The translations under genes were made by a program, and so were the position numbers. 35,170 nt of DNA from Syntrophobacterales bacterium GWC2_56_13. GTDB taxonomy: Bacteria > Desulfobacterota > Syntrophia > Syntrophales > UBA5619. Shown piece after piece: positions 1 to 8,405 of this stretch (the stretch's first letter is position 1; the number at the start of each line of letters is the position of its first letter). Below the pieces are notes generated by a model. It saw only the letters and a program-made list of their open reading frames with translations. It made no database searches and was not told where the DNA came from. The stretch lies in contig MICJ01000119.1 of NCBI GenBank assembly GCA_001830835.1, positions 3,091 through 38,260 of the forward strand. Reading direction: 5' to 3'.

Positions 1-807
1 CTCCGCGACCGGATTGCGCGGATCACGAAAAAGATCGCGAAACCGGAGAAGCGTATCGCCTTCTTTGGCGGCTGCACGATCGATTTCGTCTTCCCCGAGA
101 CGGGGGAGTCGGTCTTCAAGGTCTTCCAGGATCTGAATATGGAGGCGCTCTTCCCCGAGGGGCAGAGCTGCTGCGGAAAGCCAGTGATTGCGATGGGGGA
201 CGAGGAGACGACACGGAAGATCGCCAGAGATAACATTGCGGCCCTGGAGGAGATGAATCCCGACGTGATCATCGCCGCCTGCCCCACCTGCACGGAATCC
301 CTCCAGCACTACGCCGAGCTCCTCAAGAAGGACCAGGAGTGGGGTCCCAGGGCGGAGCGGATGGCGAAAAAGGTCCGGGAGTTCTGCAGCTTCGTCGCCG
401 AGGAGTACGCAAAGCGCGGCCGGCTGACGAAGGCTGAAGGGGGGCCGAAGGTGACCTACCACGACTCCTGCCACATGAAGCGGGTCCTTATGATCGATAA
501 GGAGCCGCGCCGGCTCCTGGAGGCCGCCGGCTGCGAGCTCGTGGAGATGAAGGACGCCGACAAGTGCTGCGGCATGTCGGGGATCTTCGGGGTGAAGTAC
601 GCCGAGCTCTCCATGCCGATTCTGGAGCAGAAGATCGCGAACATCCGGGACACGGGCGCGGAGATTGCCGCCTGCGCCTGCTCGGGCTGCATGGTCCAGA
701 TCCAGGGCGGCCTCGACAAGCAGCTCCCCGGCGTCCGGATGAAACACGTGGCGGATATCCTGGCGGAGCAGATCAAGGGGGAAATATCCCCTAAGCAGCA
801 AAAGTAA
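1..807 (+). CDS. Fe-S oxidoreductase subunit with two CCG (cysteine-rich) domains, 5'-truncated by the window edge
   Basis: The reading frame is open from base 1, so the start lies outside the window; 268 residues are visible. Two tandem CCG domains are seen: FFGGC, then SCCGKP and AACPTC; and HDSCH, then KCCGMSG and CACSGC. In HdrD/HdrB, GlcF and LldE/LutA families such domains bind a 4Fe-4S cluster and pass electrons between a flavin dehydrogenase and an acceptor. A ferredoxin-type 4Fe-4S domain would be expected in the missing N-terminal part. It is probably the Fe-S subunit of a lactate, glycolate or other 2-hydroxyacid dehydrogenase or an Hdr-like complex; the substrate cannot be read from this fragment. 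Its 3' end overlaps the convergent neighbour by 17 bp. Confidence 0.85.
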   Translation, partial: LRDRIARITKKIAKPEKRIAFFGGCTIDFVFPETGESVFKVFQDLNMEALFPEGQSCCGKPVIAMGDEETTRKIARDNIAALEEMNPDVIIAACPTCTESLQHYAELLKKDQEWGPRAERMAKKVREFCSFVAEEYAKRGRLTKAEGGPKVTYHDSCHMKRVLMIDKEPRRLLEAAGCELVEMKDADKCCGMSGIFGVKYAELSMPILEQKIANIRDTGAEIAACACSGCMVQIQGGLDKQLPGVRMKHVADILAEQIKGEISPKQQK

Positions 808-1738
808 GCCGAGTGCCCGCCATGTTCAGGATAAAGCTCTCAGGCAGGGACGCCTCGATCTGCTGGATCGATTTCCGCCCAGTACAGTGCGTGGGGACGA
901 TGTAACGGGGGTTGATCTTCCGGAGCTCCTCGATCGTCCGGCCGACGATGGGCTCGAAGACCGGGCCGTTGAGGTGGAAACCGCCCATGATCACGTGAAC
1001 GGCTTCGACACCCGTCGCCTCGCGGGCATACCGGACTGTATTGACGATCCCGGAGTGCGCGCAACCGGACAGGACGATGAGCCCCTTCCCCTTCAGGTTC
1101 ATGCAGAGCGAGGTATCGTCCTCGATGTCGTCCTTCTTCTCAACGACCCCCTCCTCAAAATAGGCGTTCGGCATCCCCTTCTCGAACTCCGTCCGGCGCG
1201 GAATTTCACCTAAAAAGAGGACATCCCCGCCAAGCAGCGGCCGGGGCTCCTTAGCCTCCACGACCCTCGTCCCGGACACCTTGGTCATTTTCCTTGTAAA
1301 GCGCGGGTAGTACGCCTTGAACTCCTCGTCGATCTTCAGGTAGCGGGGCGCCTTGAAGGCCCCGGGATGGACGACGAGTTCAATGCCCGGCTTGCCGATC
1401 AGCTTCACCAGCTCTCGGAAGCCCCCCATGTGGTCGCCGTGGCTGTGGGAGAGGGCGATCGCCTCGATCTCCCCCATCGGCAAGCCCAGAGTCCTGGCGT
1501 TGAATGTCGCGCCGATCTCGGAGAATCCGAAATCGAAGAGCATCGTCCGCGTACGTTCGCCGGCTGTCGTCCGGATCACCGCCGAGAAACCGTGTTCGGC
1601 GAGGACCGATTTTCTTTCCTGCCCCTTCACGCGCGTACCTGCCCGATGGATCATGGCGCTGTTGTCCGTCGCCGTCATGTCGATGTAGTTGTCCTGGAGG
1701 GTGAGAATCTCCACCCGGTCGAGTTCATTGATGATCAT
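791..1738 (-). CDS. Metallo-beta-lactamase-fold protein, COG1237-like
   Basis: The protein is 315 residues from the ATG at 1738, chosen because a GGGAGGG Shine-Dalgarno lies just upstream; a longer frame to 1834 runs into a dispersed repeat and is unlikely to be coding. The metal-binding motif SHSHGDH is at residues 97-103, followed later by GCAHSG, GGFHL and VPTHCTG, a ligand set typical of the COG1237 branch, which includes archaeal dihydropterin-aminobenzene phosphate synthase-like proteins. A hydrolase or transferase with a dinuclear metal site in the cytoplasm is expected; no signal peptide is seen. The true substrate in bacteria is unknown to me. It is convergent with the Fe-S protein gene. 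Confidence 0.85.
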   Translation of the reverse strand: MIINELDRVEILTLQDNYIDMTATDNSAMIHRAGTRVKGQERKSVLAEHGFSAVIRTTAGERTRTMLFDFGFSEIGATFNARTLGLPMGEIEAIALSHSHGDHMGGFRELVKLIGKPGIELVVHPGAFKAPRYLKIDEEFKAYYPRFTRKMTKVSGTRVVEAKEPRPLLGGDVLFLGEIPRRTEFEKGMPNAYFEEGVVEKKDDIEDDTSLCMNLKGKGLIVLSGCAHSGIVNTVRYAREATGVEAVHVIMGGFHLNGPVFEPIVGRTIEELRKINPRYIVPTHCTGRKSIQQIEASLPESFILNMAGTRLTFAA

Positions 1739-1764
1739 AACCGCCCTCCCGATGTTGACGGCTA

Positions 1765-1922
1765 CGTAGAAAGTCCGGATGCTGCGTTGCGCTTCATCCT
1801 TCGTCATTGCGGCGTACGCCACAGTACGCCTCATTCCTCAGGATTCGCGCGCCTTGCCTGCGGACTTTCTACGAAGCCATCCCCAATTCAAGGCTTTTGA
1901 GACTTTTTACGAGAGCGTCAAT
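1765..1922. repeat. Structured intergenic repeat, copy 1
   Basis: The segment is closely similar to 2533-2691. It is bounded by a perfect 13-bp inverted repeat (1765-1777 against 1861-1873) and holds an inner hairpin with the stem GGCGTAC/GTACGCC and a six-base loop. A conserved tail of about 50 bp follows the outer inverted repeat (AAGGCTTTT core). The loop differs from copy 2 while the stem does not. It lies between the start of the MBL-fold gene and the end of mobB. It resembles REP/MITE-type elements; no transposase is linked. Confidence 0.85.
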
Positions 1923-1978
1923 GTACCGTCTGTCTTTTTCCACAGAGCAAATCGAGCGTACTGCCTAACACCGATGGT

Positions 1979-2479
1979 TTATGCCTGCCGGGCGAGAAAT
2001 CGCCCCTCGATCAGATCCGCGAGACCCGCTGCATCGTTCCAGTCGAACCAGGGCGCTTCCGCGGAAACCGGATGATCCCCGGCGAGAGCGATGAGATTCT
2101 CCTCAGAGCCGCAGAGACGCTCCCTTCTGAGATCCGTCCGGAAGACCTCGATCTTGGGGTGAGGGTTCTGCTTGTACCCCTCCGCGAGGATGATGTCCGC
2201 GTTGCGGATGTAAAGGTCCCGTATCTCTGCGAGTTCATAATCCCTCGCCGTATCCTCGATCACGGCGATCCGGGAGGGCGAGGCGACGACCGTCGCGACG
2301 GCGCCGGCCTGCTTGTGGCGCCAGCTGTCCTTTCCCTCGCGGTCGATCTCGAAGCCGTGGCGGTTGTGCTTGATCGTCGCCACGCGAAAGCCGCGGCGAG
2401 TCAGCTCAGCGACGAGCTTCTCGATGAGCGTGGTCTTGCCGGAACCGGATTTGCCGACGATGGACACGATGGGTATCAT
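1979..2479 (-). CDS. mobB: Molybdopterin-guanine dinucleotide biosynthesis adapter MobB
   Basis: The protein has 166 residues. The N-terminus carries a P-loop, GKSGSGKTT at residues 9-17, followed by LIEKLVAEL and the family-typical TIKHNRHGFEIDREGKDSW stretch, then HKQAGA. MobB is a GTP-binding protein that assists MobA in attaching GMP to molybdopterin. Its length matches stand-alone MobB. The ATG at 2479 immediately precedes the P-loop strand; no strong ribosome binding site is seen. It is flanked on both sides by copies of the same structured repeat. Molybdenum or tungsten cofactor fits the nearby fdhE, which serves formate dehydrogenase. Confidence 0.9.
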   Translation of the reverse strand: MIPIVSIVGKSGSGKTTLIEKLVAELTRRGFRVATIKHNRHGFEIDREGKDSWRHKQAGAVATVVASPSRIAVIEDTARDYELAEIRDLYIRNADIILAEGYKQNPHPKIEVFRTDLRRERLCGSEENLIALAGDHPVSAEAPWFDWNDAAGLADLIEGRFLARQA

Positions 2480-2532
2480 GCGGTGATCATAGCCTATTCA
2501 GGCCGGATTGGCCATGTAATTTTGACAACTTC

Positions 2533-2691
2533 GTAAAAAGTCCGGATGCTGCGTTGCGCTTCACCCTTCGTCATTGCGGCGTACGTCTATGTACGCCTCA
2601 TTCCTCATGGTTCGCGCGCCTTGCCTGCGGAACTTTTTACGAAGCCGTCCTACATTCAAGGCTTTTACGACTTGTTACGAGATCATCAATT
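2533..2691. repeat. Structured intergenic repeat, copy 2
   Basis: This is the second copy of the 1765-1922 element, in the same orientation. Its outer arms (2529-2544 and 2628-2644) pair with a single bulged base, and the inner GGCGTAC/GTACGCC hairpin is kept with a different loop. Compared with copy 1, the left arm has A where copy 1 has G, and the right arm has the matching T for C, so pairing is preserved. It lies between mobB and oadB. Confidence 0.85.
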
Positions 2692-2736
2692 TTCGCATGA
2701 GGAGCTTGCGGGTTGTACTCCCGGTCATAATGCGTA

Positions 2737-8318: not shown

Positions 8319-8405
8319 GCCGAAGTGGTGGAATATGGTAGACACGCTATCTTGAGGGGGTAGTGGGCAAAACCCGTCCGGGTTCAAGTCCCGGCTTCGG
8401 CACCA
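8319..8405 (+). tRNA. tRNA-Leu (anticodon GAG)
   Basis: This is an 87-nt class II tRNA with encoded CCA (8403-8405). The acceptor arm GCCGAAG (8319-8325) pairs with CTTCGGC (8395-8401), and the discriminator base is A. The anticodon stem CTATC/GGTAG encloses the loop TTGAGGG, giving anticodon GAG, which reads CUC and CUU. A long variable arm (GGG/CCC stem, AAAA loop) and a T arm with CCGGG-TTCAAGT-CCCGG follow. No integrase or duplicated 3' end that would mark an integration site is seen. Confidence 0.96.

Follow-up and report, generated by a model that had tools for sequence, protein, structure and literature searches.

Structured repeats flanking mobB in a Syntrophobacterales genome: probable MITEs with a covarying hairpin and exchangeable palindromic cargo

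In the genome of Syntrophobacterales bacterium GWC2_56_13, mobB lies between two copies of a palindromic repeat. The stretch of contig MICJ01000119.1 analyzed here (35,170 nucleotides, referred to as the window) thus raises the question what these repeats are and what maintains their structure. An earlier note on this DNA regarded them as a sign of selection for structure or of a mobile palindromic element, and suggested that, as direct repeats, they could permit loss of mobB by recombination. Mobility and structural selection were both borne out by the analysis, while the proposed loss of mobB found no support.

The repeats around mobB

Two repeats of about 160 bp were confirmed, but their limits, set here by the transposon ends, differ from the ~158-bp units placed at 1765-1922 and 2533-2691 in the earlier note, starting 8-9 bp more to the left and ending 3-4 bp earlier on the right (Table 1). 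Copy 1 and copy 2 have 142 identical positions in a global alignment. Each element starts with its left end, followed by the core hairpin and by an inner right arm with which the left end pairs; about 21 bases of spacer separate this arm from the outer right end. The ends are GAC...GTC inverted repeats. The outer arms and inner hairpin described previously were recognized in both repeats, which fold far better than shuffled sequences (RNA fold z of -5.2 to -7.5 for both strands of both repeats, with 0 of 200 shuffles as good). A third arm had been overlooked: the outer right arm, which is the real transposon end. The same holds for the duplication flanking copy 2. Elsewhere in the window, no repeat of 35 bp or longer was detected.

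Table 1 Features of the two repeats and of the gene between them (positions in the window)
Feature	Position	Strand	Remark
MITE copy 1 (putative), 163 bp	1757..1919	- (structured strand)	flanks GATGTT/AATGTA, 4/6 alike
Six-mers flanking copy 1	1751..1756; 1920..1925		GATGTT; AATGTA
Copy 1, left terminal inverted repeat	1757..1773	+	GACGGCTACGTAGAAAG
Copy 1, core hairpin used in covariance model	1775..1863	-	107.5 bits, best match of own genome
Copy 1, inner right arm	1865..1881	-	pairs with left end
Copy 1, outer right terminal inverted repeat	1903..1919	-	
mobB	1979..2479	-	Pfam MobB, 1.6e-48; context, between the copies and outside the element
Target duplication left of copy 2	2518..2523	.	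AATTTT
MITE copy 2 (putative), 164 bp	2524..2687	-	empty site in G004 and G006
Copy 2, left terminal inverted repeat	2524..2540	+	GACAACTTCGTAAAAAG
Copy 2, core hairpin	2542..2631	-	103.8 bits
Copy 2, inner right arm	2633..2649	-	pairs with left end
Copy 2, outer right terminal inverted repeat	2671..2687	-	
Target duplication right of copy 2	2688..2693	.	AATTTT

Recombination between the repeats could in principle remove mobB; no deletion allele was seen. The congeners G001, G002, G003, G004 and G006 all have a mobB-like sequence, and the two with a closely aligned upstream site (G004 and G006) have mobB and lack copy 2. Two other features of the window were recorded. The mechanical start of an ORF with a metallo-beta-lactamase fold (791-1834, minus strand) falls inside copy 1, so that its real start is probably located further in, and a tRNA-Leu (gag) is encoded at 8319-8405 (plus strand).

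Dispersal, target duplications and an autonomous relative

The earlier note had proposed to count copies elsewhere in the genome, and many were found. In the own genome, which comprises 2.6 Mb in 119 contigs, blastn yielded 29 pieces; counting this genome, 44 of 61 had matches. A covariance model built from 50 sequences gave 26 matches in the own genome, among which the two copies of the window rank first and third, and in a sample of the phylum it found matches in 54 of 118 genomes and 45 of 92 genera. The element thus occurs in roughly every second genome sampled from the phylum. When named genomes were scanned with the core, at least 118 stretches were returned, mostly in Desulfobacterota, with some in Methylomirabilota, Nitrospirae and others; a few of these matches (e.g. 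L187 and L248) may be due to chance.

Copy 2 is flanked by a perfect 6-bp target duplication, and the flanks of copy 1 agree at four of six positions only. Among 61 full copies with readable flanks, taken from the own genome and seven relatives, the 6-bp flanks are identical in 33 and alike at five of six positions in another 17. Together these make 50 of 61 copies, against 7.2 % reaching the same level of match when flanks were mispaired. The right-flank six-mer begins with A in 56 and ends with T in 51 of these 61 copies. Furthermore, in the two congeners G006 and G004 alignment of the mobB upstream region stops at window position 2523 and resumes at 2736-2737, no element being present between. 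Four copies (L141, L097, L002 and L099) have duplications of 11-16 bp that extend into the element and take the place of its terminal GTC; the longer or shifted duplications of L141, L097 and L099 are not explained by a strict 6-bp cut.

A search for the same ends around other interiors revealed a multicopy element in G039, the ends of which break contigs. Of 155 genomes, 15 contain one end of this type of element. The own genome is among them, with three such contig ends (G000:C32, C102 and C18), where the end of the autonomous element is seen with GACGGCCTCGTAAAAAGTC or GACGACCTCGTAAAAAGTC. An intact autonomous relative is present in a genome of the same family (locus L383). Its ends, GATGAACTCGTCAAAAGTC and GATGCCCTCGTCAAAAGTC, lie at 704 and 2627 and enclose a 597-aa ORF, and ATTGTT on either side constitutes a 6-bp duplication. 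The protein scores above the Pfam cut-offs for DDE_Tnp_1_6 (PF13751), DDE_Tnp_1 (PF01609) and DUF772 (PF05598). Best among the NCBIfam models listed was IS1182 (NF033551), with 162.5 bits, which is below the cut-off of 270; the transposase is therefore named IS1182-like only. A search with the shorter L338 protein gave matches in 12 of 61 genomes and no transposase coding sequence in the own-genome bin (G000), where only ends at contig breaks were seen. The coding part of the autonomous element thus seems to be missing from this bin.

The flanking repeats are very probably non-autonomous transposons (MITEs) that an IS1182-like DDE transposase mobilizes in trans. This conclusion, like that of transposition itself, is drawn from sequence comparison, and agrees with the mobile palindromic element considered in the earlier note: terminal repeats, duplications of 6 bp, the empty sites and an autonomous relative sharing these ends all point this way. 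The enzyme, which is or was presumably active on these elements, would recognize the 17-19 bp ends TGACGRCYTCGTAAAAAGT and would paste the element into A....T six-mers, duplicating 6 bp.

A different type of transposition was considered as well. Single-strand (REP/RAYT, HUH) elements have imperfect hairpins with strand asymmetry, which the repeats resemble, and the own genome has six Y1_Tnp matches. GGGGAC-type motifs occur at two of these six loci, none of them palindromic like those inside L004, L006, L017 and L020. Against such an element speak the target duplications of 50 of the 61 copies, since HUH elements are not known to make any, the absence of replication-strand bias in G253 (13 of 23 copies on the lagging strand, a manual count based on positions and GC skew) and the existence of a DDE element with the same ends. 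Single-strand transposition was rejected on the duplications and the absent strand bias, and is very improbable. As a gene lies between the repeats, integron attC sites were also considered; they were dropped, the repeats being explained by transposon ends, duplications and an autonomous partner.

Pairing, strand and genomic placement of the hairpin

The paired arm change reported in the earlier note was observed at pair 13/113, which is G-C in copy 1 (arms GTAGAAAG and CTTTCTAC), A-T in 60 of 62 copies and G-T in one. Two copies alone prove little, and covariation was therefore tested on larger alignments. In a hand-picked set of 50 diverse sequences (alignment A1, drawn from the 68 A copies, which gave 19, and from the diverse loci, which gave 31) 120 two-sided (compensatory) cells were counted, with a shuffled mean of 37.3 (sd 6.5) and 0 of 500 shuffles as high. 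Two-sided changes occurred at 16 pairs (shuffled 10.0), and 93.1 % of cells pair (shuffled 84.7), a score on which the structure is favoured by having been derived from the same 50 sequences; no shuffle out of 500 reached either value. Related sequences can beat shuffles without any structure, which makes a control with slid pairing important: it gave at most 51 two-sided cells and at most 43 % paired cells. A second set consisted of 62 full copies of the family of the window (61 with readable flanks), omitting L008, L012, L121, right ends with more than 6 mismatches and 8 copies with changed or cut cores. It showed 70 two-sided cells, with a shuffled mean of 22.7 and a maximum of 35. The covariation expected in a larger alignment was thus upheld in both sets, and the hairpin core is under structural constraint, its covariation exceeding that of shuffles.

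The core forms a long hairpin on the minus strand. Tandem G.A pairs, which only this strand can form, are found at four column pairs in 43, 39, 44 and 42 of the 50 sequences, and some of the exceptions are Watson-Crick pairs. Wobble pairs in the arms also favour the minus strand, by 42 to 11 in 68 copies (8 copies with changed or cut cores left out), and over all pairs of the 62 copies they do so by 88 to 35. No comparable bias of mutations is seen in the spacer, which is unpaired (G>A 14, C>T 19; T>C 16, A>G 25). The wobble excess and the G.A pairs, next to an unbiased spacer, point to selection on minus-strand pairing, either as RNA or as single-stranded DNA. Compensatory change on this strand maintains the pairing of the palindromic hairpin, and the element represents a clear case of strand-specific structural selection, by compensatory changes and tandem G.A pairs, on the interior of a bacterial transposon.

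The strong covariation, the wobble preference with its unbiased spacer and the conserved G.A columns would also suit a structured RNA, regulatory or stable, that is transcribed from the minus strand and selected by the host, its spread by transposition being secondary. That the same locus is empty in two congeners argues against this. Furthermore, between tandem genes the minus strand of the element is mostly antisense, by 26 to 9 on crude ORF calls (9 to 3 in the own genome, 3 to 0 in G250, reversed to 3 to 5 in G253), and this makes a simple role in mRNA less likely. An Rfam search gave no match at the gathering threshold or at E<=1, and unrelated palindromes can replace the hairpin (see below). 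A host-selected RNA is therefore unlikely as the primary explanation.

It may also be speculated that the repeat is a mobile two-way transcription terminator, kept for ending transcripts between genes. A-tract, stem and T-tract are the usual look of a two-way terminator, and the arms have this appearance (AAAAAG...CTTTTT); moreover, converging genes surround 20 of the 65 intergenic copies that were scored. The same A and T tracts, however, belong to the transposon ends, and copies are also located between diverging genes (10 of 65) and within ORFs (16 of 85 evaluated). Termination as the reason for which the repeats are kept is quite unlikely. The interpretation as MITEs was retained. That their cargo is palindromic may be due to a folded hairpin or cruciform juxtaposing the ends of a very short DNA for transposition, or to hairpins being tolerated between genes.

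Palindromes exchanged between frames, and comparison with known systems

Loci fetched around the ends (n = 160) contained 81 inward end pairs, 45-330 bp apart. Fifty-five of these were kept, having flanks alike at 5-6 of 6 positions, a level reached by 11 % of mispaired flanks; the other 26 were dropped for a match below 5/6 or for another element inside. In 54 of the 55 end-bounded elements the interior differs from the window-type core and consists mostly of known palindromes, many of them head-to-head dimers. The largest class comprises 22 GTCATTCC(C/G)G elements, mostly dimers, which were assigned by regex class and not checked individually for their features. It is followed by 13 CCCTCCCC hairpins, 11 GTCAYCCTGAAY dimers and 5 GTCATTTCGA dimers. 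Single cases are a GTCACCCCGG dimer, a CTTCGACAAGC palindrome, one window-type core (L406) and one unclassified interior. A GTCA(T/C) tag near an end is present in 41 of the 55. Frame lengths cluster near 84-87, 132-133, 142-144, 152-156 and 171 bp across different cargoes. Helical phasing of these lengths is not claimed: the score for a 10.5-bp periodicity (0.35) did not stand out, and periods of 9.5 or 10 scored higher. At L266 (locus 1501-1570) a minimal A frame was seen, about 65 bp long and almost without interior.

In 242 kb of loci chosen for their ends, 22 tagged dimer-like units were counted, of which 19 lie between two A ends, 3 have one intact end and none is free; as the loci were selected around ends, this is an enrichment and not a census. 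In 1.38 Mb of loci fetched on other grounds, the dimer pattern matched twice, neither time in an A frame. One of these matches looks spurious by eye; the second, in G253, is a GTCATTTCGAG dimer. Free dimers thus occur outside this order, and restriction of dimers to frames holds just for the 242 kb of loci.

The window-type core is in turn found between other types of ends. Read by eye, L164, L183, L021, L241 and similar loci have this core in frames with ends CAGGCTGTTGAAAAA or CAGGCTGCTGAAAAA and with CTAG or TNA-like duplications, which suggests that another transposase is involved; at further loci the arms are well paired but unrelated. Three A frames (L004, L006 and L020) and one B frame (L017) of the own genome have the palindrome GGGGACGGATTTCAAATCCGTCCCC in place of the right half of the core, with identical junctions. 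The same exchange in two end types suggests passage of cores between frames, or a shared hot spot. Also in the own genome, A-type arms of L016 enclose a CTCGACAGG...CCTGTCGAAC palindrome in place of the core, and L011/L015 have another inverted repeat in place of the apical loop. The hairpin between the ends is thus an exchangeable cargo, as these ends carry several further palindrome families and this core is present between other types of ends.

Like MITEs of DDE insertion sequences, the repeats are small, encode no transposase, and have terminal inverted repeats and target duplications; they occur in many copies at dispersed places, with empty sites in relatives, and have an autonomous partner with the same ends. 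They differ from these by the strand-specific, covarying hairpin interior, and by the many unrelated palindromes carried between the same ends. The L383-type transposase resembles the IS1182 family in its best NCBIfam model and in its DUF772 and DDE domains, and differs from it by a score under the family cut-off. A literature search of open-licence papers with the letters of the repeat gave no match. Other searches of such papers, judged by the listings, gave background on MITEs and REPs, but neither this element nor dimers of REPs within frames of the IS1182 type appeared there.

Multicopy palindromic intergenic sequences of Geobacter, a related bacterium, are likewise dispersed, palindrome-based intergenic families, a likeness that holds at the level of their description; the available parts of the two papers name no mobilizer (PMC2700814; PMC2996986).

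A further comparison is with REPs tagged by CGTC. According to the accessible sections of the study on these repeats (Di Nocera et al. 2013, PMC3733652), they lack a dedicated transposase, include Neisseria dRS3 and the rickettsial RPE repeats, and form dimers within longer palindromes in H. neapolitanus; mobilization by many transposases is offered there as one option. The longer palindromes of H. neapolitanus may be the ends of a frame of the kind described here. Other cargoes of the frames fit the CGTC-tagged REPs as far as these are characterized in those sections: L310 and similar loci, read directly, have a TGTC tag, an 8-bp stem beginning with AT, a 4-base loop, a CCA tail and head-to-head dimers. 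The window core has a CGTC beside its hairpin, preceding AT and the apical hairpin but located inside a longer paired helix. It is also longer than these REPs and has internal G.A mismatches; instead of a continuous stem of 8-9 bp, a loop of 4-5 bases and a CCA tail, it shows a loop of about 6 bases on a 7-bp apical stem with mismatches.

That the same ends carry other orphan palindromic repeats suggests how such repeats move, and IS1182-like enzymes are candidate mobilizers of CGTC-tagged repeats. It is tempting to go further and to suppose that IS1182-like DDE transposases are the missing mobilizers of CGTC REPs; that short end-frames are standard vehicles which take up, swap and spread palindromes, the hairpin helping end juxtaposition or transcript survival; that cores shuttle between the frames of different transposases; and that, so, many widespread bacterial palindromic repeats are MITE cargo modules and not independent elements. 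As one joint claim this is possible, if somewhat doubtful. The link that would matter is that of IS1182-like ends as vehicles for orphan palindromes. As palindromes in this order sit in transposon frames with an autonomous partner that can be named, the question of the CGTC-REP mobilizer becomes testable.
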